Source: Gluconacetobacter asukensis
GTDB lineage: Bacteria > Pseudomonadota > Alphaproteobacteria > Acetobacterales > Acetobacteraceae
DNA length: 64,000 bases
Assembly: GCF_014174375.1 (NCBI RefSeq)
Contig: NZ_JABEQE010000002.1
Span: forward strand, 1-64,000
Reading direction: 5' to 3'
Shown: positions 30,074 through 45,707 of the stretch, in pieces
Layout of the letters: every line of letters starts with the position of its first letter
Numbering within the stretch: the stretch's first letter is position 1
Translations under genes and position numbers: made by a program
The notes under the pieces: generated by a model
What the model was told of the DNA's origin: nothing
Database searches by the model: none
The model's input: the letters and a program-made list of their open reading frames with translations, nothing else

Positions 30074-30261
30074 GCGGGATACTCCGTACCGTCCGGCCGC
30101 CCCATCGGGAGTCGGCCGGGCCATGATGGCCGTGTGGGTCGCGCCACGCCCTGCCACAGCCTTCAGCCATGCGTCAAACCGCGTGAGGGCACAAGGGCTG
30201 CCTCGGCAGGTCAGACATCACAACCGCAGGAATGAATAATGGCATGATTTGGCGGCGAAGT

Positions 30262-30537
30262 GGGAGGGCTTCTGTTGCCCGGTGCCCTCCCGAACCGCGC
30301 TTGTCACTTATGCAGCGACAGCGAGCACCTCAGAGTTATCGTTGGCACTTGTAAGTTAGCCCGATGACGGCGGTACAATGCCGGGCAAAAGGCAGGTCTT
30401 TACCATGCGTGTCGAGCCTGTTTCGTCCCCATGCTCCCCTGCCCCGAAGGGTCATGGCGGGGAGAGTTCTGGTGGAGACGCCGGGTACTGCCCCCGGGTC
30501 CACTACACTTATTCCACGTGCCGTTTATCGCCATAGC
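30262..30537 (-). ncRNA. ssrA: tmRNA (ssrA), circularly permuted two-piece form
   Basis: tmRNA rescues stalled ribosomes by acting first as tRNA-Ala and then as mRNA. On the minus strand the acceptor piece comes first (about 30537-30470), ending in the T-arm region GGACCCGGGGGCAGTACCC and CTCCACCA. An intervening segment (30469-30431) follows, then the coding piece beginning GGGGACGAAACAGGCTCGAC at 30430, whose GGGGA pairs with TCTCC of the acceptor. The tag frame is at 30346-30308: GCC AAC GAT AAC TCT GAG and onward, giving ANDNSEVLAVAA then TAA. A hairpin of GGGAGGGC/GCCCTCCC lies at about 30262-30290. The acceptor-before-coding order is the permuted alphaproteobacterial arrangement. End positions are approximate. 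Confidence 0.96.
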
Positions 30538-30565
30538 CAAGGAGCAAGCCCCTCCGGCGCTCTGA

Positions 30566-30594
30566 TATATAAGGATGCCGCATCATGGGCGCAA
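30566..30594 (-). promoter_or_regulatory. sigma-70-type promoter of ssrA
   Basis: Read on the minus strand, TTGCGC (30594-30589) and TATATA (30571-30566) are separated by exactly 17 bp. Transcription would start near 30559, just ahead of the acceptor piece. Confidence 0.65.
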
Positions 30595-30663
30595 GCCGTG
30601 TCCGCAGCCGGTGATTCGTGGTATGCGGCCCCTTGGACTCAGCGGCAGGGACGGAGCGCGGCA

Positions 30664-33708: not shown

Positions 33709-34329
33709 ATGAAGACAGCCCTCTCCCGTCGTCATGCGCTGGGTCTTGTTGCCGCGGTCGCCACCCTACGGGTTGCGGCACCAGCCCGCGCCGCTTCTGC
33801 CGTGGATGCCCGCGCATTCGTCAACAGCTTCGGCCAGCAGTTGATCGCGATCGTCAATTCCGACCATTCACTGGCCGACAAGAAGGTCGCAATCCTGCCG
33901 CTGCTGCAGGCGCATGTCGACATGGACGCCATGGGCCGCTACTGCCTGGGCCGCTACTGGCGGGTCGCCACGCCGGAGCAGCAGACGCGCTTCCTGGCGC
34001 TGTTCCACCAGATCCTGGTCAATTCCATCACCGACAAGATCGGCGATTATCGGGGCGTGACCTTCATGATCGGCAATGTCGCCTCCTCCGGTCCCGACCA
34101 GGCGGTGGATACGGTGATCAGCCGCCCCGAACAGCCGGCCTTCAACGCGCAATGGATCGTCAGCTTCAGCAGCGGCAAGCCCATGGTGGTGGACGTGATG
34201 GCCGAAGGCCCCAGCCTGCGCCTGACCACGCGGCAGGATTATGCGTCCTTTCTCGGCCGGCATAATGGCAGCATCGACGCCCTGCTGCATGCGCTGGACC
34301 ATCAGGTACAGGCGCACGCCGCCCCCTAG
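33709..34329 (+). CDS. mlaC: periplasmic phospholipid-binding protein MlaC family
   Basis: The 206-residue protein has a signal peptide with a twin-arginine-like start (MKTALSRRHALGLVAAVATL, cleavage likely after ARA) and the Ttg2D/MlaC fold: AHVDMDAMGRYCLGRYWRVA, FLALFHQILVNSITDKIGDY. MlaC ferries phospholipids across the periplasm between MlaA and the inner-membrane complex. In hopanoid-producing bacteria close relatives are called HpnM. The stop codon TAG at 34327-34329 is also the first part of the structured repeat that follows. Confidence 0.9.
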   Translation: MKTALSRRHALGLVAAVATLRVAAPARAASAVDARAFVNSFGQQLIAIVNSDHSLADKKVAILPLLQAHVDMDAMGRYCLGRYWRVATPEQQTRFLALFHQILVNSITDKIGDYRGVTFMIGNVASSGPDQAVDTVISRPEQPAFNAQWIVSFSSGKPMVVDVMAEGPSLRLTTRQDYASFLGRHNGSIDALLHALDHQVQAHAAP

Positions 34330-34491
34330 AGGCGGTTGTAAATGCGCGCTGGTGGCGATCCGGCGCGCGTTTCCTGCGCTTCGGTGCTCTCGGCCATCAA
34401 GGCCGCTCCGCTCCGATGCTCGGAAACACACGCCGGGCGCGGCCCTGCGGGCCGCTCTCGCTCACCAGCCCACATTTCCAATCCGCCTCTC
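34328..34491 (+). repeat. structured intergenic element, family 2 copy A
   Basis: The outer stem pairs AGAGGCGGTTGTAAATGCGC at the left with CATTTCCAATCCGCCTCT at the right, with a few mismatches. The conserved core includes CTTCGGTGCTC and CCGCTCCGCTCCGATGCTC. Internal stems are GTTTCC/GGAAAC and GCGGCCC-TGC-GGGCCGC. The element starts on the mlaC stop codon and lies between convergent mlaC and the GNAT gene. Confidence 0.85.
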
Positions 34492-34521
34492 TCACGCTGA
34501 TTGGAATGCGCTTCGTCCCCA

Positions 34522-35190
34522 CTATTCCGGCAGCCTGACCGGGCGGCGCGGCGGCAGGGGGGGCAGCGGCTCGGGCGCGACGTCGCGGATGCTTTCATAG
34601 ACCAGCATCTGGTGGCCATCGCGTTCGAAACTGTCGCACTGGGTCATGCCGATCCCGCCCAGGATGGTGCGCGAGGCGATGTTGGTGTCGCGCGTCACCG
34701 CCATCACGCGGCGAATCCCTGCATCATGGGCGAAGCTCAGCGCCGCCGAGGCGGCCTCGCGCGCCAGGCCGCGCCCGGCGGCCCACGGCCAGAGCGCAAA
34801 GCGCAGGCCGAGCCCGCGCCCGTCCGGGCGTTCGTGCAGGCCGGTCATGCCGATAAAGCGGCCATCCTCGCGAATGATGAAGATTCCGACCCCGCGCCGT
34901 GCCCAGCAGGCCATGTCGTCGGCCATGTCGGCCTCGGCCTGCTGGCGGCTGCGCACGCCGCCCAGCATCATGCCGAACGCCCCGGCATCGGCCTTCAGCC
35001 GGGCCATGTCGTCCATGTCCCGCCACGAGACCGGTTCCAGCACCAGGCGCGGCGTGCGGATCGACCCGCCCGTGATCCGGGGATAGGTCGCCCATTCGGT
35101 GCGGTCGGCGGGCTGCCCCCACGGGCCACGGCGCAAATGCCGCGCCCCGGCGGGGTCTGGCCCGTCAGCTCCGCGCGGCGGACGCGTCAC
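34522..35190 (-). CDS. GNAT-family N-acetyltransferase (RimJ/RimL-like)
   Basis: The GNAT domain begins GGSIRTPRLVLEPVSWRDMD with DMARLKADA and has the acetyl-CoA-binding stretch FALWPWAAGRGLAREAASAA and the later AVTRDTNIASRTILGGIGMT. No ATG precedes the domain, so I chose the GTG at 35190, just outside the end of ettA, for 222 residues; this start is uncertain and about 40 residues before the domain look low-complexity. The C-terminus is proline-rich (EPLPPLPPRRPVRLPE). The substrate is unknown. Confidence 0.8.
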   Translation of the reverse strand: MTRPPRGADGPDPAGARHLRRGPWGQPADRTEWATYPRITGGSIRTPRLVLEPVSWRDMDDMARLKADAGAFGMMLGGVRSRQQAEADMADDMACWARRGVGIFIIREDGRFIGMTGLHERPDGRGLGLRFALWPWAAGRGLAREAASAALSFAHDAGIRRVMAVTRDTNIASRTILGGIGMTQCDSFERDGHQMLVYESIRDVAPEPLPPLPPRRPVRLPE

Positions 35191-35236
35191 GGGGGCCCGG
35201 CAGGACGGTCGGGACGTGCATGGCCGCCCCGGCGGT

Positions 35237-36916
35237 TCAGCGTGCCAGGGGGCGGTACTTGATCCGTCCCGGCTCGGTCGCATCCGGACCGAGTCGGCGT
35301 CGCTTGTCCTCTTCATAAGCCTGGAAATTGCCCTCGAACCATTCGACGTGGCTGTCGCCCTCGAAGGCCAGGATATGCGTCGCCAGCCGGTCCAGGAACC
35401 AGCGATCATGGCTGATGATCACGGCGCAGCCGGCGAATTCGGCCAGCGCGTCTTCCAGCGCGCGCAGCGTATCGACGTCCAGGTCGTTGGTCGGTTCGTC
35501 GAGCAGGATGACATTGCTTTCCTGCCGCAGCATCTTGGCCAGATGCACGCGGTTGCGCTCGCCGCCCGAGAGGATGCCGACCTTCTTCTGCTGGTCCGCA
35601 CCCTTGAAGTTGAAGGCGCCGACATAGGCGCGCGACGGCACGGCCCGCTTGCCCAGATAGATGACGTCGGTGCCGCCGGAGATTTCCTCCCACACACTCT
35701 TATTGTCATCCAGGCTGTCGCGCGACTGGTCGACATAGCCCAGCTTGACTGTGTCGCCGACCTTCAGCGTGCCGGAATCCGGCTGTTCCTGGCCCACGAT
35801 CATGCGGAACAGAGTCGATTTGCCGGCGCCGTTCGGCCCGATGACGCCCACGATGCCGCCCGGCGGCAGCTTGAAGCTGAGATCGTCGATCAGCAGCCGG
35901 TTGCCGAACGCCTTGCGCAGATCCTCGGCCTCGATCACCGTGCCGCCCAGGCGGGGGCCGGGCGGAATGACGATATCGGCGGTGCCGCCCGCACGCTCGG
36001 CGTTCTGGGCCAGCATTTCCTCATAGCGGGCGATACGCGACTTGCTCTTGGCCTGACGCGCCTTGGGGCTGGAGCCGATCCATTCCTGCTCGGCGGCCAG
36101 GGCGCGCTGGCGGGCGCTCTCTTCCTTTTCCTCCTGGGCCAGGCGCTTGCGCTTCTGTTCCAGCCACGAGGAGTAATTGCCCTGGAACGGATAGCCGCGG
36201 CCACGCTCCAGTTCCAGAATCCAGTTGGTGACGTTGTCCAGGAAGTAGCGGTCATGGGTGATGATCATGACCGTGCCTTCATAGTCGCGCAGGGTCCGCT
36301 CCAGCCAGGCCACGCTCTCGGCGTCCAGATGGTTGGTCGGTTCGTCCAGCAGCAGCAGGTCCGGCTTTTCCAGCAGCAGGCGGCACAGGGCCACGCGGCG
36401 GCGCTCACCGCCCGACAGCTTGCTGACCGGGCTTTCGGCCGGCGGGCAACGCAGGGCGTCGAGTGCGATGTCGATCTTGCGGTCCAGTTCCCAGCCGTCG
36501 CCGGCGTCGATCTTTTCCTGCAATTCGGCCTGCTCGGCCAGCAGCGCCGTCATCTCGTCGTCCGACATCGGCTCGGCGAACTGCATCGAGATCTCGTTGA
36601 AGCGGTCGACCGCCACCTTCAGGTCGCCGAAACCCAGCGCCACGTTCTCGCCGACGGTCAGGGACTCGTCCAGCTTGGGCTCCTGCTCCAGATAGCCGAT
36701 CCGGGTGCCTTCGGCGGCCCAGGCCTCGCCGCCATATTCCTTCTCGATCCCGGCCATGATCTTCAGCAGGGTCGATTTACCGGCGCCGTTCACGCCCAGC
36801 ACGCCGATCTTCACCCCGGGCAGGAAGGACAGGGTGATGCCCTTGAAGACCTCGCGCCCACCCGGATACGCCTTGGTCAGGTCCTTCATCACATAGACAT
36901 ATTGCGTGGCGGCCAT
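35237..36916 (-). CDS. ettA: energy-dependent translational throttle protein EttA (ABC-F)
   Basis: EttA is a ribosome-associated ABC-F ATPase that gates the first peptide bond according to ATP/ADP. The 559-residue protein has two ATPase cassettes: GVNGAGKSTLLKIMAGIEKE with LSGGERRRVALCRLLL and LLLLDEPTNHLD, then IGPNGAGKSTLFRMIVGQEQ with LSGGERNRVHLAKML and VILLDEPTNDLD. A helical linker lies between them (LEQKRKRLAQEEKEESARQR). I chose the ATG at 36916, MAATQYVYVMKDLTKAYPGG, matching the family. Confidence 0.95.
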   Translation of the reverse strand: MAATQYVYVMKDLTKAYPGGREVFKGITLSFLPGVKIGVLGVNGAGKSTLLKIMAGIEKEYGGEAWAAEGTRIGYLEQEPKLDESLTVGENVALGFGDLKVAVDRFNEISMQFAEPMSDDEMTALLAEQAELQEKIDAGDGWELDRKIDIALDALRCPPAESPVSKLSGGERRRVALCRLLLEKPDLLLLDEPTNHLDAESVAWLERTLRDYEGTVMIITHDRYFLDNVTNWILELERGRGYPFQGNYSSWLEQKRKRLAQEEKEESARQRALAAEQEWIGSSPKARQAKSKSRIARYEEMLAQNAERAGGTADIVIPPGPRLGGTVIEAEDLRKAFGNRLLIDDLSFKLPPGGIVGVIGPNGAGKSTLFRMIVGQEQPDSGTLKVGDTVKLGYVDQSRDSLDDNKSVWEEISGGTDVIYLGKRAVPSRAYVGAFNFKGADQQKKVGILSGGERNRVHLAKMLRQESNVILLDEPTNDLDVDTLRALEDALAEFAGCAVIISHDRWFLDRLATHILAFEGDSHVEWFEGNFQAYEEDKRRRLGPDATEPGRIKYRPLAR

Positions 36917-36999
36917 GACGAAGGCTCCCGATGATCCAGAGTAAAAAGAAAGCGAACGGCCGGCGTTCCCCGGTGGGACGCGCGACGCGGGCTGCGGCC

Positions 37000-37073
37000 T
37001 GCGCCCGGCAGGACTTGAACCCGCAACCAAGCCGTTATGAGCGGCCCGCTCTAACCAATTGAGCTACGGGCGC
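37000..37073 (-). tRNA. tRNA with CAT anticodon (Ile2 or elongator Met)
   Basis: On the minus strand the acceptor stem GCGCCCG/CGGGCGC, D-arm GCTCAATTGGTTAGAGC, anticodon stem-loop GGCCG-CTCATAA-CGGCT and T-arm GCGGGTTCAAGTCCTGC form a full cloverleaf. CCA is not encoded. The anticodon CAT with the TTGGTTG variable loop is closer to tRNA-Ile2, whose C34 becomes lysidine, than to elongator tRNA-Met, but this needs a model-based check. Confidence 0.9.
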
Positions 37074-37233
37074 GCAGGCCGGTCCTCACTTCGCGCATGT
37101 GCGGGCTTTTGGCAAGATGCACATTGGCCCGTACCGGCGATTCCCGCCATCGAAACGACGCTTGGCAACGGCCGGCGGCGTCGATAGGTTCGGCGCCATT
37201 CTGTTCCTGTTTCCAAGAGTATGGAGCGCCGCC

Positions 37234-37761
37234 ATGGATGTGTCGAAAATCTCGCCCGGCAAAGACGTGCCGTTCGATATCAACGTCGTCATCGAGATCC
37301 CGCAGGGATCGTCGGTGAAATATGAAATCGACAAGGACAGCGGTGCCGTCGTCGTCGACCGCATCCTGTTCACGCCCATGGCCTATCCGGCCGCCTACGG
37401 CTTCATTCCCGGCACGCTGGCCGACGATGGCGACCCGGCCGATGCGCTGGTGCTGATCCCGGCCCCCGTCGTGCCCGGCGCCGTGATCCGCGCGCGCCCG
37501 ATCGGCATGCTGCGCATGGAAGACGAAAGCGGCCAGGACGAGAAGATCATCTGCGTGCCGCACGACAAGGTGCATCCGCACTATTCCAAGGTCGAGAAGC
37601 TGGAAGACCTGCCCGAGATCACCCTGCAGGCGATCGAGCATTTCTTCACCCGCTACAAGGACCTGGAGAAGGGCAAGTGGGTGAAGGTGACCGGCTGGGC
37701 CGGCCGCGAGGAAGCGGGCGAGATCATCAAGGCGTCACTGGCCGCCGCCCAGAAAGCCTGA
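37234..37761 (+). CDS. ppa: inorganic pyrophosphatase (family I)
   Basis: Ppa hydrolyses pyrophosphate to phosphate and pulls biosynthetic reactions forward. The 175-residue length is typical. Motifs are DVPFDINVVIEIPQGSSVKY with EIDKDSG following, the metal-binding region GDDPxD-like as ADDGDPADALVL, and PHDKVHPHYSKVEKLEDLPE. The ATG at 37234 fits the family start. The TGA at 37759-37761 touches the start of structured repeat copy B. Confidence 0.96.
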   Translation: MDVSKISPGKDVPFDINVVIEIPQGSSVKYEIDKDSGAVVVDRILFTPMAYPAAYGFIPGTLADDGDPADALVLIPAPVVPGAVIRARPIGMLRMEDESGQDEKIICVPHDKVHPHYSKVEKLEDLPEITLQAIEHFFTRYKDLEKGKWVKVTGWAGREEAGEIIKASLAAAQKA

Positions 37762-37926
37762 GAGGCCGTTTGCAAAGTCACCCTGCCGGCGATCCGACGC
37801 GCATTTTCTGCGCTTCGGTGCTCACGGCCATCAAGGCCGCTCCGCTCCGATGCTCAAAAATGCACGCCGGGCGTGCCGCTACGCGGCACTCTCGCTCGGC
37901 AGGCCGACTTTTCAAACAACCTCTCT
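37760..37926 (+). repeat. structured intergenic element, family 2 copy B
   Basis: The outer stem pairs AGAGGCCGTTTGCAAAGTC with GACTTTTCAAACAACCTCTCT. The core keeps CTTCGGTGCTCACGGCC and CCGCTCCGCTCCGATGCTC. The internal stems are GCATTTT/AAAATGC and GTGCCGC-TAC-GCGGCAC, differing from copy A by paired changes. It begins on the ppa stop codon and separates convergent genes. Confidence 0.85.
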
Positions 37927-37973
37927 AAGTCCTCTTTCCCCTCTTGCCGCGCCTGGGGGGGCAGGAAAGATTT

Positions 37974-39200
37974 TCAGGCGCCTTGGCCCGCCACCCGGTC
38001 AATCAGGTCCCGGTAGCGCGCCATATACGCCCCCATGTCCAGCGTGCGTTCGGCCTGCCGACGCGCGGCCCGGCGCAACCGGGCGGACAGGCGGGCATCT
38101 TCCAGCACCTCCAGGACGCCTTGGGCGATGCCATCGGGGTCCAGGAACGGTACCAGCCGGCCGGTGCGTCCATCGGCCAGGAATTCGCGCACCGGCATGG
38201 TGTCGCTGCCCACGATGGCACAGCCCATCGCCATCGCCTCGCGCAATGACCAGGACGCCACGAACGGGTAGGTTAGGTAGACATGCGCGTCGGACCGGCG
38301 CAGCAGCGCGCGGAATGTCTCGTAATCGACCCTTCCCGCGAAATGGACCCGGTCCGGATCGATCCGCCCCGCCAGTTCCGCCATCATCCGCGCCCGCCAC
38401 GCGCCATGCGGCTGCTTGGCGCCGTAGCTGACGCCATCGCCGCCCACCAGCACCACCCGCACATCCGGCCGCGCCGCCAGAATGCGCGGCAGCGCGCGCA
38501 TGAAGACATGAAAGCCGCGATAGGGCTCCAGGTCCCGCGCCACATAGGTCACCAGCCGATCATGCGGCGCGATGACCGTGCCGGCGACATGCAGGGGCCG
38601 TTGAAAGGCCGAGGGGTCGGGGGAGCAGGCGTCCAGGTCCACCCCTTCGGGCAGCAGGGCGATCCGCTCCCGCGCCCAGTCGGGATAGGTCATCCACTGG
38701 AAGCGGGTGGGGGTATGGCCATGCCCACCCAGCGCCAGCGCCTGGAGATTGACCGCATTCTTGGCGCGGATGGTCGGCCGGATGCTCTCGGGCGAGGGGA
38801 ATTCCGGGTCGAACCCCACATCCAGCGCGTCGGCATGGTAGAAGAATTCGAAATAGCCCAGCAGCGGTACGCCGGGAAACACATCGCCCAGGTTCAGCAA
38901 TTCGCCCCAGCCGTGATGGCCGATCACGATATCCGGGCGATAGCCCAGCTCGCGCAGGCTGAGTGCCGCGCGCGCCACGCATTCGGCCCGCAGCAGCGCG
39001 AGGTCGAATTCCCGCGCCCCCGGATGCACGCCGTCCAGCCCGCCGCGCGGCAGGCGATAGGCCACGCGGCGCACTCCGGGGACCTGATTGTCGTTCGGCT
39101 CGCTGATGAAGACGATCTCGTTCCCGGGGTCCTGGCCCAGATGCCGCAGCAGATGCAGGAACTGGCCGGGAAAATTCTGGTGAACGAACAGATATCTCAA
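37974..39200 (-). CDS. glycosyltransferase family 4 protein
   Basis: The 408-residue protein has a GT-B fold pattern: MRYLFVHQNFPGQFLHLLRH at the start, DIVIGHHGWGELLNLGDVFP in the N-domain, and the nucleotide-sugar-binding C-domain with VTYVARDLEPYRGFHVFMRA, VRVVLVGGDGVSYGAKQPHG and the EX7E-like SWSLREAMAMGCAIVGSDTM. It would transfer a sugar from an activated donor in the cytoplasm. It ends a leftward gene series with another glycosyltransferase and a type I secretion pair. Donor and acceptor are unknown. Confidence 0.9.
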   Translation of the reverse strand: MRYLFVHQNFPGQFLHLLRHLGQDPGNEIVFISEPNDNQVPGVRRVAYRLPRGGLDGVHPGAREFDLALLRAECVARAALSLRELGYRPDIVIGHHGWGELLNLGDVFPGVPLLGYFEFFYHADALDVGFDPEFPSPESIRPTIRAKNAVNLQALALGGHGHTPTRFQWMTYPDWARERIALLPEGVDLDACSPDPSAFQRPLHVAGTVIAPHDRLVTYVARDLEPYRGFHVFMRALPRILAARPDVRVVLVGGDGVSYGAKQPHGAWRARMMAELAGRIDPDRVHFAGRVDYETFRALLRRSDAHVYLTYPFVASWSLREAMAMGCAIVGSDTMPVREFLADGRTGRLVPFLDPDGIAQGVLEVLEDARLSARLRRAARRQAERTLDMGAYMARYRDLIDRVAGQGA

Positions 39201-39258
39201 GACATCATCCCGGCAGCCGATTGGGACGGAAACGTGACGGGCGCACGCCGGCCGCCGG

Positions 39259-40491
39259 TCACGGCTCCTGTCGGGGCCGACGGCGCGACGCCATCTGCCG
39301 GCGCGCCTTCAGCAGGCCCACGCGCGACCCCTGCGCCTTGCGCCCCCGGCCCGGCCGGAGGGCATCGATGGACACAATGTCTTCGGCCGGTTCGGCACCC
39401 TTGCTCCGGCGCTTCCCCGCGATTTTGGCTGGAGCGTCCTTGACCGGATCGGCGATTCCGGCCCGACGTTTCCGGACCGTCCCGGCGGGCGCCTCCGCCA
39501 CCGGCGGGGGAGCCGTCACGGGTTTGGGGCGGCGGCGGGTGTTTTTCTCCGCCGCCATGGTGCTGGCCAGCAGCGCCTTTTCCCCCTCGTCGGGCACCTC
39601 CGATTCCGCCACCGGCACGATCTCGATGCGGAAAGCCTCCAGCGGCGCCGCGCTTTCGGCCTCCGCCACCCCGCCATCCGTCACCGGTCCCACCCGGCTG
39701 CCATCGGTAAAGCTGGCCCAGACGCGGCACTGATACCGGCCGGCGGCCTGCGGCTTGAGCCGGACGCGCAGGCCCAGGATCGGCAGCGCCATGCCGCGAC
39801 TGCCGCAGAACTGCCCCCCCGAGGCCCAGGGCGACAGCCAGCCGCGCCCCAGCACCGCCTGATATTCGATCTCCTCGGCCGTGATCAGCCGGGCGGGCGC
39901 GATGGCGAAGCCCTCGATCCAGTTCCGGCTGCCGGGCGTGCCCATCCAGTCGGCCATCGCGGTCGCCACATCGCCGCGACGCTGGATATGGGCCGTCAAC
40001 TCGCCGGTGGTGGGTTGCCCGGCCGGGCGATCCCCTGTCGGCCGTTCCGCGGATGTGGGCGGTAGCGGAAAGGGCGGCGCGGCACCGAGGGCCGGCCGGG
40101 GCGAGGCCATGGCGGGCGCCGGGCCAGCGGCCGGCGCATCGGCCAGACGCACCACCTGAAGGCGCGGCGTCTCGGCCATCTGGGCCGGGTCCTGGTAGAT
40201 GGTGATCAGGATCTGCCCGGCCGCCCCCGGCACACGGACCAGTGCGGCGTTGCGTGCCGCCCCCAGCCAGCCATCTTCATCGAAGGTCGCGATCCCGACC
40301 CCGACGCCGCCCGGCCCCGGAGCGCGCGAGATGCGCACGCCCGGCAGGTCCTCGCCCGCCCCGCCAGCCGGCATCTCGCCCCCGGCGGCATGGAAGATGC
40401 AGTATAGCCCCGGTTCAAGCGTCATCAGGCGGCCGGAGACCTTCAGGTCCATGAGCCGGCCCGGATTGTCGGTCGTCATGCTGTCCGGCAT
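39259..40491 (-). CDS. unknown protein in glycosylation/secretion locus
   Basis: I do not recognise this 410-residue protein. It starts at the ATG at 40491, sharing one base with the TGA of the glycosyltransferase upstream (TGATG), so translation is coupled. Residues 1-110 form a compact domain (LKVSGRLMTLEPGLYCIFHA, GVGIATFDEDGWLGAARNAA, AGQILITIYQDPAQM). A Pro/Ala-rich linker follows, then a second domain (residues 170-300, IQRRGDVATAMADWMGTPGS, NWIEGFAIAPARLITAEEIE, LRVRLKPQAAGRYQCRVWAS). The C-terminal 100 residues are strongly basic and look disordered (KNTRRRPKPVTAPPP and similar). There is no signal peptide. It may assist or regulate the glycosyltransferase. Confidence 0.75.
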   Translation of the reverse strand: MPDSMTTDNPGRLMDLKVSGRLMTLEPGLYCIFHAAGGEMPAGGAGEDLPGVRISRAPGPGGVGVGIATFDEDGWLGAARNAALVRVPGAAGQILITIYQDPAQMAETPRLQVVRLADAPAAGPAPAMASPRPALGAAPPFPLPPTSAERPTGDRPAGQPTTGELTAHIQRRGDVATAMADWMGTPGSRNWIEGFAIAPARLITAEEIEYQAVLGRGWLSPWASGGQFCGSRGMALPILGLRVRLKPQAAGRYQCRVWASFTDGSRVGPVTDGGVAEAESAAPLEAFRIEIVPVAESEVPDEGEKALLASTMAAEKNTRRRPKPVTAPPPVAEAPAGTVRKRRAGIADPVKDAPAKIAGKRRSKGAEPAEDIVSIDALRPGRGRKAQGSRVGLLKARRQMASRRRPRQEP

Positions 40492-43400
40492 CAGCGGGCT
40501 TTCCGTCGAGGGGTGGGGGAACAAGAGGCAGTGTCCTGCACCGGCAGGTAGTCGACTGGATGCAAGGTCGGGATCTCCCTTTTCTCCCGGCGACACGTGC
40601 TGGCCGCCCCGATCTGCCCATAAGACAGCAAAAACGTATTCAATTCGTGAATCGGCAGGCCGGGCGGCAGCACGGCCCCGCGACCGGTCCGGCGCACGCG
40701 CTCCGCCATCGCGCCCAGATCGAACACCACCGCGTCCAGCCCCGCCTGCCACGCCAGCCCCAGGGCGAAACACCAGGTCTCGGGCCAGATCGAGGGCAGG
40801 AAGGCCAGATCCGCCCTTTGCGCCGCCAGCAGCGCGGCGCCGTCGCCTTCCGCGTACGGGCCGGTGACGAACACCCGGCCGGTGGCCATCAGCGCGTCAT
40901 CGTCCGGCGTATGCCCCACCACGATGAATTCCAGATCCAGCCCCCGGGCGGCGGCATCCTGCGCCGCTTCCAGCAGCACGCGGTACCCTTTCTCGACCCC
41001 GATCGCGCCGGGCACCGCCACCCGTATCCGCGCCGCCGAACCACGGGCCGCGACCGCTGGCGGCGCAGCCGCCGCATCGTCCGCCAGCGCGGCCACGCCG
41101 ACCGCAAGGCCGGGAAAGGCCCGTTCCATGCGGCGGGCGGTATCGGCGGAGGGGGCCATCACCGCCCCCGCTCCGCGCAGCACGGCATTGGACCGCGCAC
41201 GATAGGCCGACAGGCGCCCGAGCACCGGGCCGGCGCCCTTCAGCAGGCTGTCGCCCGCATGCAGACAGGCGGCGCATCCCGCCGGCCCGGGCTCGCCGCA
41301 ATACTGGCCGGACGGGTCCACCAGTGCGACGCGGGGGCAGAACCAGACATAATCATGGACATGCACGCTGTACGGCACACCCAGCCCGGCAGCCAGCGTC
41401 GGCGCGTCGATCCCGAGCCCCAGCCCGTGATGCCATTCCAGCCTGTCCACCCCCGACGTCCTCAACACCGCCAGCAGCAGATCCAGATCTGCCGGCAGGT
41501 GGAAGCGCGGGCTGGCGGACCAGTCGCCCCCCGCCGCGTCTTCCAGCCGGCAGCCATCGGGCGCGGGGCGCAGCACCACCGGCCGCACGCCCCGCGCGCG
41601 CCACATCCGGGCCCGGTCCCGCACCACCCGTTCCACCCCGCCGCCCTGATCATGCGTGACCAGAAGCACCGCATGGCGCCAACCGGCCCCGCCCCGCCGC
41701 CAGCACACCAGATCCAGCCGCCTGCGGGCATCGAACAGCGGATCGACGACGGCATGGGCCGCCACCAGCGCACCGTAATCGGGATGCAGCCGGTCCATGA
41801 TCGCCAGATTGCGCCGCAGCAGCGCCGGGCGGGCGGCGCCGAAGGAGGCGGCACCCGCATGGCCGACAAACGCGCCGGGTGCGGCGACATGCCGCCAGCC
41901 CACCATGGCAGCGCGTCGGCAGAATTCATTCTCCTCGCCATAGCCCTGGGCGAAGAGGTCGGCGCGGAACGGGCCGGTGGCGGCCAGGCAGTCGTGCCGG
42001 ATGAACAGGCAGAATCCATGCCCGGTCGGGACATCGACCGCCTGCCCGCGATTGGCCGCCCGCGCCGCCGCCATCAGATGCTGCACCGTCGCCAGATCGG
42101 GCATCGGCGCGGGCGCGTCGCCCGGCAGCGCATCCGGGCCGGGCCAGGAGAAGAGGCTGGCCCGGTTGGACAGCGGCGTGACGGTGCCGATATCGGGCGC
42201 GCCATAGGCGATGTCGGCCAGTTCCTCCAGCCATCCGCCGGCCACCAGCGTATCGCTGTTCAGCAGCACCACATCGTGCTCCGCCACCGCGCGCATGCCG
42301 TCATTGGCCGATTGCGGAAAGCCCAGACGGCGTGTGTGACGGATCAGGCGAATGGCCCCCTCCCGCGCCCGCCGGTCCAGTTCGGCGGCCAGGACCGGGT
42401 CCGGCGTCGCGTCATCGACCACGATCACCGCCACCGCGTCCCCCACGCTGGCCCGCACCGAATCCAGGCACGCCAAGGTGGCCGCGCCATCGCCATGCAC
42501 CGGGATGACGATGGCCGGCCCGGCCCGGCGCGGCGGTTCCAGCGGGGGCGGGCCGGCGGATTGTGCCTCGTCGGAGGACATGACCGGGCGCACCGTCAGC
42601 GGGCTGCCCGTCAGGTCGCTGCCATCCGGCCCCAGCACATGCAGCGGGCCGGGCGGCAGGTCGGCCGTCGCCAGGGCAAAGCGGCGGGGCCGGGCCAGCG
42701 GGAGCGTGCTCTCCGCCCCCGGCGCAGGATCGGCGACGAGGACGCGCCGGATCATGCGTCCCCGCGCGTCGCGGATGTGCAGCACAGGCGCCTGATCCGG
42801 GTCCGACGGATGCCAGGCCCAGCCCGACAGCCCGTCGGGTCCGGCCTCGACCAGCCCGTCGATCCGTTGCAGGGCCGCCGGGTCCAGCGGGCTGCCCAGC
42901 AGATTCGCGCCGCCGGCCAGGACCTCCACCCGCCGCGCGCGGCGCCACCGGGCGGGCAGTACGGTCCCATCCTCCGCACCGGGAACGGGCCGGCCGTCGA
43001 TCAGGACCGTCACCGCCGGCGCCCCTGCCCCCAGGCACAGCCGCCCGGACACGGACAGGCCGCACCAGCCCGGCCGGCCGGCCCGCGCCGCCAGCCGCGC
43101 GAGCAGGGGCTGCATGTCGTCGGGCGGCGCATGATGGGACAAGGCATGCTGCGCAGCGGCGATGGCGGCGGTCTCCTCTCCCGCCATCAGCAGGGCGGCC
43201 GCCAGGGCCACCCAGCCCTCGCGGAAATCGAAACGCCCGGTCAGGGTACGCAGTAATTGCGCGGCGCCCGCGCCATCGCCGCCGCGCAGCCGCGCCATCG
43301 CCAGCGGAAAGGCGACCACGACACTGTCCGGTGCCAGACGATGGGCGCGTTCGTACCAGGCCCAGGCGCTGCCATGGTCGGCGGCGTCCTCGCTCTCCCG

Positions 43401-43508
43401 CGCGCGGCGAAAGGCCGACTGGGCCTGGGCGTCGGCCCAGACCTGCCAAGCCGCGCGGTCCTGCGGCGTGACCCGGCCGCGTGCGGGCTGCACCCTGTGC
43501 CCTGCCAC
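40491..43508 (-). CDS. large bifunctional glycosyltransferase (TPR-like, GT2 and GT4 domains)
   Basis: The 1005-residue protein has an N-terminal TPR-like helical region (about 15-145, SAWAWYERAHRLAPDSVVVA), a beta-rich segment (150-310), and a GT2 domain at about 330-570 (GPAIVIPVHGDGAATLACLD, AVIVVDDATPDPVLAAELDR, VVLLNSDTLVAGGWLEELAD, FAQGYGEENEFCRRAAMVGW). A GT4-like domain follows at about 610-970 (HDQGGGVERVVRDRARMWRA, AVPGAIGVEKGYRVLLEAAQ, DLAFLPSIWPETWCFALGLA). Similar multi-domain enzymes decorate surface polysaccharides or glycoproteins. It is 3 nt after the Sel1 protein gene. Confidence 0.9.
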   Translation of the reverse strand: MAGHRVQPARGRVTPQDRAAWQVWADAQAQSAFRRARESEDAADHGSAWAWYERAHRLAPDSVVVAFPLAMARLRGGDGAGAAQLLRTLTGRFDFREGWVALAAALLMAGEETAAIAAAQHALSHHAPPDDMQPLLARLAARAGRPGWCGLSVSGRLCLGAGAPAVTVLIDGRPVPGAEDGTVLPARWRRARRVEVLAGGANLLGSPLDPAALQRIDGLVEAGPDGLSGWAWHPSDPDQAPVLHIRDARGRMIRRVLVADPAPGAESTLPLARPRRFALATADLPPGPLHVLGPDGSDLTGSPLTVRPVMSSDEAQSAGPPPLEPPRRAGPAIVIPVHGDGAATLACLDSVRASVGDAVAVIVVDDATPDPVLAAELDRRAREGAIRLIRHTRRLGFPQSANDGMRAVAEHDVVLLNSDTLVAGGWLEELADIAYGAPDIGTVTPLSNRASLFSWPGPDALPGDAPAPMPDLATVQHLMAAARAANRGQAVDVPTGHGFCLFIRHDCLAATGPFRADLFAQGYGEENEFCRRAAMVGWRHVAAPGAFVGHAGAASFGAARPALLRRNLAIMDRLHPDYGALVAAHAVVDPLFDARRRLDLVCWRRGGAGWRHAVLLVTHDQGGGVERVVRDRARMWRARGVRPVVLRPAPDGCRLEDAAGGDWSASPRFHLPADLDLLLAVLRTSGVDRLEWHHGLGLGIDAPTLAAGLGVPYSVHVHDYVWFCPRVALVDPSGQYCGEPGPAGCAACLHAGDSLLKGAGPVLGRLSAYRARSNAVLRGAGAVMAPSADTARRMERAFPGLAVGVAALADDAAAAPPAVAARGSAARIRVAVPGAIGVEKGYRVLLEAAQDAAARGLDLEFIVVGHTPDDDALMATGRVFVTGPYAEGDGAALLAAQRADLAFLPSIWPETWCFALGLAWQAGLDAVVFDLGAMAERVRRTGRGAVLPPGLPIHELNTFLLSYGQIGAASTCRREKREIPTLHPVDYLPVQDTASCSPTPRRKAR

Positions 43509-43511
43509 CGG

Positions 43512-45281
43512 TCAGCCCGCCCCAGCGCCGGCGGCCGGGCCGGCCGCTGCCCCCAGCCGGGCCAGCTCGGCCACGGCGTCCGGCACGCCCTGCGCGGCGG
43601 CGCGTTCCAGCCATTGCCGGGCCTCGGCCGGGTCGGTCACGCCGGCCAGTCCACGCAGCAGATAGCGCCCCAGCATCAACTGCCCCAGCGCATTGCCGCG
43701 TTCGGCCGCCATGCGGAACCAGTGCTGGGCCTGCGGGCGATCCACCGGCACGTCGTGGCCGCCGCCCAGCAGCGCGCCCAGCGAGAACATGGCATCGACC
43801 TGCCCCTGTTCGGCCGCCGCCCGATAGAGCACGGCCGCCGCCGCATGGTCGCGCGGGCCGCCACGCCCGGTCAGCATCAATTGCGCCAGAGCGACCTGGG
43901 CATCGGCCATGCCGGACTCGGCCGCCCGCGCGATCCAGCTCCGGCCCGCCGCCGCGTCGGCCGCGCAGCCGCGCCCGTCCAGCAGCATGCGGCCGTACCA
44001 ATATTGCGCGTTCACCACCCCGTCGGCGGCGCGCAGCATCCAGCCCGCCGCCGCCTGTTCGTCCCGCGCCATTCCCAGCCCCTGGGACAGGCAGATGCTG
44101 AAATTGAAGGCCGCGACTGGGTCCCCGGCCTCTGCCGCGTGGGCGAAATACCGGCCGAGATCGCGCCGGTCATCCTCCGACGCATCCTGGTCCAGCAGCA
44201 GATTGCCCAGATCGGCGCCCGCCCGCCCGTCGCCCAGTGCCGCCGCCTGCCGGAAACAGCGCGCGGCCTCGGTCACGTCGCGGGGCTGGCCGGCCCCGGT
44301 CAGGGCCAGCATCCCCAGCGCCCGCCATGAGGCGGCATGGCCGGCCGAGGCCGCCCGGCGATACCATTGCGCGGCCTCGATATAGTTCGGCGGCAGATCG
44401 CCGCCGCTGGCATACCGATCGCCCAGCAGCGATGCGGCCTCGCGATCGCCGGCCAGGGCGGCACGGCGCAGCCAGCTTTCCGCCCGCGTCGCATCGCGGG
44501 CGCAACCCCGCCCCTCCAGCAGGGCCAGGCCAAACCGTGCCTGGGCCGCGCGCACGCCGGCCTCGGCCGCACGCCCATACAGCGCAGTGGCCGCCGCGCT
44601 GTCGCGCGCCACGCCGCGCCCCTGTTCGGTCAACGCCCCCAGCAGGAACTGCGCCGATCCCAGCCCGGCATCGGCCGCCAGACGCAGGGACGCCGCCGCC
44701 CGCGCATGCCCGGCCTCATCGGTCGCCGCCCGCATCCAGACCAGCCCGAGGCCCAGATGGCCCTGCGGACAGCCGGCGGCGGCGGCGCGGGAGAACCAGC
44801 CCTCCGCCGCCGCCGGGTCGCGCATGTCGGCCGGCCCGTCGGCGAGGATATAGCCATAGAGCGCCTGTGCATCGGGCGACCCGGCCTCGGCCGCAAGAAG
44901 CGCCCAGCGGGCGGCCTCGACCGGGTCCGACACCCGGTCGCCCGGCGTTTCGGCCACCAGGCGCACGCCCTGCCCCTCCGCGCTTTCGCGCGGCAGGCCG
45001 AACAGATAGAGCGTGCCCAGCACCATCCGGGCCTCGACCCACCCGGCCTCGGCCGCGCGACGCATCCAGCGCGCACCCTCCACCAGGCTGGGCGGCACGC
45101 CGGTGCCATCCAGATAGGCCCGCCCGACCCGAAACTGGGCTTCGGGCATGCCGGCCTCGGCCACGCTGCCCAGCAGCGCCACCCCGGCCACCACATCCCC
45201 GTCCTCGATCAACCGCAAGGCATGCGCCAGACGCGCCCGCGACGAAAACCGCGCCCCCAGCGCCGAAAAAACCCGCTTCAC
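43512..45281 (-). CDS. Sel1-like repeat (TPR) protein
   Basis: The 589-residue protein consists almost entirely of about 14-15 Sel1-like repeats of 35-38 residues, with the usual A..G...A...LG..Y..G.G...D...A..W...AA pattern, for example GSPDAQALYGYILADGPADM, and AGVRAAQARFGLALLEGRGC. The first 25 residues (MKRVFSALGARFSSRARLAH) look like a basic leader but not a clear signal peptide. Sel1 proteins are scaffolds for protein complexes, often in envelope and polysaccharide pathways. Its place just ahead of the glycosyltransferase suggests a scaffold for that machinery. Confidence 0.9.
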   Translation of the reverse strand: MKRVFSALGARFSSRARLAHALRLIEDGDVVAGVALLGSVAEAGMPEAQFRVGRAYLDGTGVPPSLVEGARWMRRAAEAGWVEARMVLGTLYLFGLPRESAEGQGVRLVAETPGDRVSDPVEAARWALLAAEAGSPDAQALYGYILADGPADMRDPAAAEGWFSRAAAAGCPQGHLGLGLVWMRAATDEAGHARAAASLRLAADAGLGSAQFLLGALTEQGRGVARDSAAATALYGRAAEAGVRAAQARFGLALLEGRGCARDATRAESWLRRAALAGDREAASLLGDRYASGGDLPPNYIEAAQWYRRAASAGHAASWRALGMLALTGAGQPRDVTEAARCFRQAAALGDGRAGADLGNLLLDQDASEDDRRDLGRYFAHAAEAGDPVAAFNFSICLSQGLGMARDEQAAAGWMLRAADGVVNAQYWYGRMLLDGRGCAADAAAGRSWIARAAESGMADAQVALAQLMLTGRGGPRDHAAAAVLYRAAAEQGQVDAMFSLGALLGGGHDVPVDRPQAQHWFRMAAERGNALGQLMLGRYLLRGLAGVTDPAEARQWLERAAAQGVPDAVAELARLGAAAGPAAGAGAG

Positions 45282-45323
45282 GCCCTACCCCGGATCAGAC
45301 AACTGCCAGAACAGCGCATAGAT

Positions 45324-45390
45324 GTTTCCAAGCGTCCGAACGCAGCGGCCATGAACACCGGACGCACGAAACCCGCCCCAGATCGGATTG
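45324..45390 (-). repeat. decayed partial copy of family 2 element
   Basis: GTTTCCAAGCGTCCGAACGC followed by AGCGGCCATGAACACCGGA and CACGAAACCCGC aligns with the GTTTCC...GGAAAC section of copy C with many substitutions. It stands in tandem with copies C and D. It lies in the 423-bp gap between the Sel1 and membrane-fusion genes, which holds no gene. Confidence 0.5.
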
Positions 45391-45399
45391 AGCCGCGGA

Positions 45400-45540
45400 G
45401 TTTGGACCCGCAAACGTGAGCTGCTGAGCGAGAGCGGCCCAAAGGGCCGCGCCCGGCGTGCGTTTCCGAGCCTCGGCGCGGAGCGACCTCCATGGCCGTG
45501 AGCACCGGAGCACAGGAAACGCGCGTTTGCGGGTCCAAAC
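45400..45540 (-). repeat. structured intergenic element, family 2 copy C
   Basis: The outer stem is a perfect 17-bp inverted repeat, GTTTGGACCCGCAAACG at 45400-45416 and CGTTTGCGGGTCCAAAC at 45524-45540. Read on the minus strand the core matches the other copies, with internal stems GCGTTTCC/GGAAACGC and GCGGCCC-TTT-GGGCCGC. It lies 1 nt beyond copy D in tandem, same orientation. Confidence 0.88.
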
Positions 45541-45541
45541 G

Positions 45542-45707
45542 TAAAACCTGTCCTGCAAGCCATTCTGCCGAGCGAGAGTGCCGCCCAGCGGCACGCCCGG
45601 CGTGCATTTCCGAGCATCGGAGCGGAGCGGCCTTATGGGCCGTGAGCACCGAAGCACAGGAAATGCGCGTCGGATCGCCGGCAGAATGGCTTGCAGGACA
45701 GGTTTTA
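45542..45707 (-). repeat. structured intergenic element, family 2 copy D
   Basis: The outer stem is a perfect 29-bp inverted repeat: TAAAACCTGTCCTGCAAGCC at the left (45542-45570) with its exact complement at 45679-45707. Internal stems on the minus strand are GCATTTCC/GGAAATGC and GTGCCGC-TGG-GCGGCAC. The stem begins with the TAA stop codon of the membrane-fusion gene (45707-45705). Confidence 0.9.

Follow-up and report, generated by a model that had tools for sequence, protein, structure and literature searches.

A family of palindromic miniature elements at stop codons in Gluconacetobacter, probably of IS1031 type

Four structured intergenic elements (copies A to D) in a window of 64,000 nt from Gluconacetobacter asukensis (contig NZ_JABEQE010000002.1, positions 1-64,000) are members of a large MITE family of an already known kind, the striking feature of which is its placement at stop codons. 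The family is very probably a non-coding one of the IS5/IS1031 type. This assignment is supported directly by the copy number, the element ends, a statistical 3-bp target duplication, empty sites at orthologous loci, the placement and orientation at stop codons, and the presence of IS5-family elements with similar ends. In acetic acid bacteria the elements make up a large family of repeats situated at many gene 3' ends, including that of the inorganic pyrophosphatase gene (ppa), and both filled and empty sites are available for measuring the effect of the element.

All four copies were found where the initial annotation had placed them, with boundaries off by a few bases, and the internal stems that it quoted and the outer stems of C and D are all present. 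Copy A (34,329-34,489, + strand) lies directly 3' of an MlaC-family gene and overlaps the TAG stop codon of that gene (34,327-34,329) by 1 nt. Copy B (37,762-37,923, + strand) lies directly 3' of the TGA stop codon of ppa (37,759-37,761), and its terminal inverted repeats on the same strand are GAGGCCGTTTGCAAAGTCACC on the left (37,762-37,782) and GGCCGACTTTTCAAACAACCTC on the right (37,902-37,923). The tip of copy D (45,544-45,705, - strand) touches the TAA stop codon (45,705-45,707) of an HlyD-family gene, and copy C (45,400-45,540, - strand), with arms GTTTGGACCCGCAAACG, lies directly behind D. C is indeed a copy of the family, as had been proposed, but it is a shortened one without the CTGGnGGCGATCC part of the left side, which is retained in the same-site elements of two relatives (G120 and G042). 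A repeat search of the window gave inverted matches between B and D (128 nt, 91%) and between A and C (114 nt, 88%). A single long hairpin containing an inner three-way junction is predicted for each of A, B and D. Elsewhere in the window, positions 30,259-30,598 on the - strand hold an ordinary permuted alphaproteobacterial tmRNA gene.

Blastn with the core of B found 52 copies in the G. asukensis genome, and a covariance model (R1) built from 43 of these 52 hits gave at least 138 matches at E ≤ 1e-3 in the same genome, a lower bound because only 150 of 6,550 first-look candidates were scored; with such numbers, the recurrence goes far beyond chance. The nine weakest matches and then five without 60-nt flanks were dropped, leaving 124 copies for analysis. 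A covariance-model search of this kind had been suggested as a check in the initial annotation, and it yielded many further copies both here and in other Acetobacteraceae: matches at E ≤ 1e-4 were present in 22 of the 120 genomes of a family-wide sample, this genome counted, and hits were present in 14 of the 14 Gluconacetobacter genomes searched. In a class-wide sample of 289 genomes with stricter filters, two genomes matched at E ≤ 1e-6, namely this one and one from another family. The HlyD-family gene adjoining D was found in six named relatives, all Gluconacetobacter species. A scan of the window against Rfam gave no match on A-D at the gathering score, and the best match of B alone (E 0.4) was far below threshold; for lack of an Rfam match, a known RNA family was rejected as the identity of these elements. 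No description of such a family was found among the titles and abstract openings listed from a literature collection with few subscription papers, and an earlier description elsewhere is possible. Three tandem copies about 183 nt apart, with a similar flank after each, were observed in this genome (C2:156568-157058, L041), and further close pairs exist.

The element is about 162 bp long and non-coding, with a core of about 110 nt, itself palindromic, between terminal inverted repeats of about 21 bp, whose tips are mostly GAG...CTC and whose arms share the consensus GAGnCTG. It is therefore short, non-coding, multi-copy (138 matches) and inverted-ended, as is a MITE. Arm pairing was scored in the 95 of 124 copies whose arms were clean: Watson-Crick pairs made up 86-100% in 14 of the 15 columns j6-20 and 73% at j9, and from j22 outward their share dropped to 24-36%, which is the background level. 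C.C and C.A mismatches are common within the arms. In one relative (G128: L182, L187, L190 and L306), a repeat starting ATGTGTGGACGGCCC was observed inside the loop of several copies, always at the same point after GATGCTC; this repeat has six matches in that genome, one weak match in G124 and none in the other 12 genomes of the genus. A likely guess is that it is an IS targeting the hairpin loop of the element.

A duplication signal was found in the flanks. Of the 95 copies, 21 had identical flanking 3-mers, where permutation predicts 11.5, and none of 5,000 shuffles reached 21; exact flank identity at lengths 2, 4, 5 and 6 gave no signal in the same 95 copies. The left flank is TnA in 51 of the 95, the right flank is also TnA in 23 of these 51, and the middle base is the same in 19. 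The 3-mer signal is the mark of a 3-bp duplication of TNA type, partly eroded. The duplication expected of a MITE is thus present statistically at a length of 3, and it is inexact at the three young sites: the copy at C2:124884 is flanked by TGA on the left and CAA on the right, and the sites of B and D have extra bases and no exact repeat.

At the same three loci, filled sites can be set beside empty orthologous ones, which the initial annotation had suggested looking for. Copy B is absent behind ppa in 13 of the 13 other genomes of the genus, and the ppa neighbourhoods of these genomes (2.2-3.5 kb) gave no match to any part of B. The copy at C2:124884 is absent in all five relatives seen. 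In this genome (G000) and G128, D lies between the stop codon of the HlyD-family gene and a C-type element, whereas in G120 and G042 D is absent and the C-type element lies directly behind the stop codon. Copy number, element ends and empty sites together bear out the earlier suggestion of a small mobile element. The comparison of sites across species covered 28 of 58 selected copies, with six of 66 regions (all from G126) and most G127 rows excluded, and several sites were occupied across species. Orthologous sites that hold only a simple hairpin, seen in G120, G126, G127 and G042, had prompted the reading that the core inserts into pre-existing terminator hairpins; several of these hairpins are more simply explained as deletion derivatives, and this reading was rejected except at C1:124493. 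At C14:55444, G128 has a deletion joint at a GCCTG direct repeat.

Full-length relatives with similar ends were found within the genus. G042, G122 and G123 contain IS5-family elements measuring 883, 897 and 929-930 bp, each between identical TNA flanks; their boundaries were the same whether or not identical TNA flanks were demanded, and their ends include GAGCCTGTTTGGGAAAT, GAGCCTGTTTGAGAATG and GAGCCCGATCCGAAAGT. The NCBIfam model transpos_IS5_3 matches the two G042 transposases at 3e-70 and 2e-67. The G. asukensis genome itself has one 897-bp IS5-family element with a 274-aa ORF and non-identical flanks (TTA and TCA), which was missed by PF01609 with a strict end search and found by a looser search. 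In G122 and G123 (L304, L305), two lone element arms enclose an 848-bp segment, which was considered as a full-length IS and rejected on account of its other coding content, which we take to be a gene for an MgtC-like protein. When seven ends of the IS5-family elements were compared with the 95 MITE arms, 12-15 of 17 bases agreed with the best arm and 9.3-10.6 on average, against at most 9 of 17 for the reversed ends as controls, and 7-10 (average 3.9-7.0) for five ends taken from other Gluconacetobacter ISs. One paper describes the IS1031 group as inserting at TNA with a 3-bp repeat and gives as an example ISLrh, with ends GAACCTGTC... and insertion at TGA (PMC12016507). Judging from ends and flanks, the IS5-family elements of the genus with TNA-type flanks would belong to this group, the NCBIfam match itself naming only the IS5 family. 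The MITE family resembles the group in its ends, by the comparison above, and in its TNA target and 3-bp repeat, by the flank counts, but about 162 bp leaves no room for a DDE transposase; it is a non-autonomous relative of the IS1031 group and not a full member. Beyond the ends, B showed no significant similarity to four full-length ISs (best E 0.2), so its core did not arise from those ISs by simple internal deletion. Against the IS5/IS1031 assignment stand the inexact duplication in all but 21 of the 95 copies, the differing flanks of the IS of this genome, and the outer 11-mers, of which 75 are distinct among 95 copies, making the arms far more varied than one transposase would suggest.

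The placement of the element is strongly biased towards gene ends. Genes were called by our own codon-usage script rather than taken from annotation; by these calls, 104 of the 124 copies share their strand with the closest gene upstream, 18 have that gene on the opposite strand, and two are without a call. In 56 of the 124, the tip of the element carries a stop codon of the same strand (16-22 nt ahead of the model start, in 36 at exactly 19), and in 11 further copies the frame closes slightly within the left arm (5-11 nt), giving a total of 67. The stop codons of these 67 are TGA in 54, TAG in seven and TAA in six, with no clear enrichment of TGA over other stops (141 of 197 TGA), the 197 being stops of predicted genes in the stretches fetched around the copies and not a random set. 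The tip stops are mostly CTGA: C precedes the stop in 49 of 56, compared with 86 of the 197 other stops (p=2e-9), and over all 67 in 55 (p=4e-8 against the same 86 of 197). In four of the 124 copies, the stop of an opposite-strand gene lies within 27 nt of the right end of the element. A preference for CTGA targets, together with duplication of TGA, explains much of the stop-codon placement. The orientation bias requires either asymmetry, in the target or in the transposition complex, or else selection.

The IS5/IS1031 assignment suggests the following course of events. The DDE transposase of full-length IS5-family elements would act in trans on the MITE ends, joining them to target DNA at TNA and duplicating 3 bp there. 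C-TGA, often a stop codon, would be preferred, so that duplication of TGA would leave the gene intact, and insertions breaking genes or promoters would be purged by selection. After insertion, the hairpin would become part of the upstream gene's 3' UTR, where it may alter the ending or decay of the mRNA, and old copies would degrade through point mutation and internal deletion. Of this scheme, mobilisation in trans, current activity of the family and an effect on mRNA are the parts that we infer.

What do the paired changes in the stems reflect? They are real in the alignment, in both core and arms, and the initial annotation had argued from compensatory change for selection on structure. In the corresponding reading, the element would be a structured 3'-UTR RNA, acting as a terminator or decay block and kept by selection, as proposed for Yersinia YPAL. 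Such an RNA is a possible but rather unlikely explanation of the family. In its favour, 67 of the 124 copies have a same-strand stop codon at the left tip or slightly within it, the upstream gene is on the same strand in 104 against 18, and several sites stay filled across species; in other genera, a stop triplet followed by the element was seen by eye in many of the copies inspected. The older hairpin behind ppa (37,928-37,977, + strand) is also weaker next to B (predicted -16.9 kcal/mol) than in four relatives without B (-26.6 to -34.3 kcal/mol), which at this one site hints that the element may have taken over the 3'-end role. However, A.C mismatches outnumber G.U on the sense strand of the element by 75 to 33 (34 to 20 in the arms and 41 to 13 in the core), a poor fit to selection on sense RNA, with p-values that are overstated because the copies are related. 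Such an excess could fit structure formed by the opposite strand, or common descent of the copies. In addition, a near-palindrome folds either way, so hairpin function alone cannot account for the orientation bias.

The arms changed little in concert where descent is clear. Orthologous sites gave 195 paired arm differences, 109 of them from species pairs with at most four each, and these had suggested rapid compensatory evolution in place. A core-identity control weakened this suggestion: in the 22 species pairs of clearest descent, with cores more alike than 90% of paralogous pairs, three paired changes were found against 19 one-sided ones. Most paired differences came from pairs with cores no closer than those of paralogues, in which the element may have been replaced or may have inserted anew at the same stop. 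The case for selection on RNA structure made from compensatory changes is thus weakened on two counts, and the best view of the matched arms is that they are terminal repeats which are inherited and decay after insertion. In the A1 alignment (columns 33-43 and 65-75), the apical stem was observed in two linked forms, CTTCGGTGCTC...CTCCGATGCTC and the same arms exchanged; swapping of the block would account for two "compensatory" pairs in a single step. More generally, covariation between paralogous palindromes may stem from transposon inverted repeats and can mimic selection on RNA structure.

It is also conceivable, with a probability slightly lower than that of the RNA reading, that template switching inside the palindrome keeps the arms matched as DNA, with no selection on RNA. 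Paired differences at the same stop in different species, for example at C15:70514 (GTTTCTGCCCG/GTTTATGCCCG/GTTTTGGGCCG) and C2:104692 (GTGTGTG/GTGCGTG/ATGGGTG), and the lack of a G.U preference agree with this mechanism, which PMC8794818 describes for RNA stems. Nevertheless, the common C.C and C.A mismatches in the arms were left unrepaired and the paired changes are barely clustered (52 adjacent, where permutation gave 43.9 and at most 58), and most of the paired differences are between species whose cores are as distant as paralogues. Template switching is a candidate source of new matched arms. A composite of these ideas appears unlikely, although less so than the two readings that follow: an IS1031-type MITE specialised for stop codons, which duplicates TGA, inserts in near-single orientation and would thereafter act as a portable 3' end replacing the host terminator, as hinted at ppa, its arms matched by template switching rather than by RNA selection.

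REP/BIME sequences are linked to RAYT, a Y1 transposase. Assignment of the family to REP/BIME or to another element moved in single-stranded form by a Y1 transposase is very improbable: the copies are palindromic, intergenic and numerous, and GTAG REP ends often provide stop codons according to PMC3733652, but a length of about 162 bp, inverted GAG/CTC ends, the 3-bp duplication signal and IS5-family elements with similar ends all speak against it. Least credible is the suggestion in the initial annotation that the element copies its own flank into an inverted repeat, for although the outer arms vary from site to site, they are the element's own terminal inverted repeats with a common GAGnCTG consensus, pairing stops sharply at the tip, and the empty ppa neighbourhoods have no match to the arm of B, which contradicts flank copying at that site.

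How does the IS5/IS1031-type MITE family compare with known systems? REP/BIME sequences with RAYT, as described in PMC3733652, are likewise palindromes near gene ends, but they are 20-40 bp long and carry GTAG or CGTC tags, from which the present elements differ in both length and ends; the same source reports CGTC repeats as missing in Acetobacteraceae. ERIC, NEMIS/Correia, RUP and other bacterial MITEs are similarly short, non-coding and stem-loop forming, and most are inverted-ended, but they have other hosts (PMC2229807, PMC10969869). Members of the IS1031 group (IS5 family, e.g., ISLrh), as described in PMC12016507, share GA(G/A)nCTG-type ends, a TNA target and a 3-bp repeat. Unlike that group, the family carries no transposase gene, is about 162 bp long, has a palindromic core unlike the IS interiors compared, and is concentrated at stop codons. 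This position behind stop codons fits a 3'-UTR function, and a putative role at mRNA 3' ends, by analogy with that proposed for YPAL, is plausible. In the primary study, YPAL is said to insert close behind stop codons, and mRNAs carrying it reportedly occur at higher levels. YPAL/RU-2 of Yersinia (PMC2229807, PMC2759123) resembles the family in being about 168 bp long and palindromic, with many intergenic copies and both filled and empty sites, and differs from it, by anatomy only, in having duplications of 3-26 bp and internal inverted repeats (PMC2229807) instead of the 3-bp signal and terminal repeats of the Gluconacetobacter elements.
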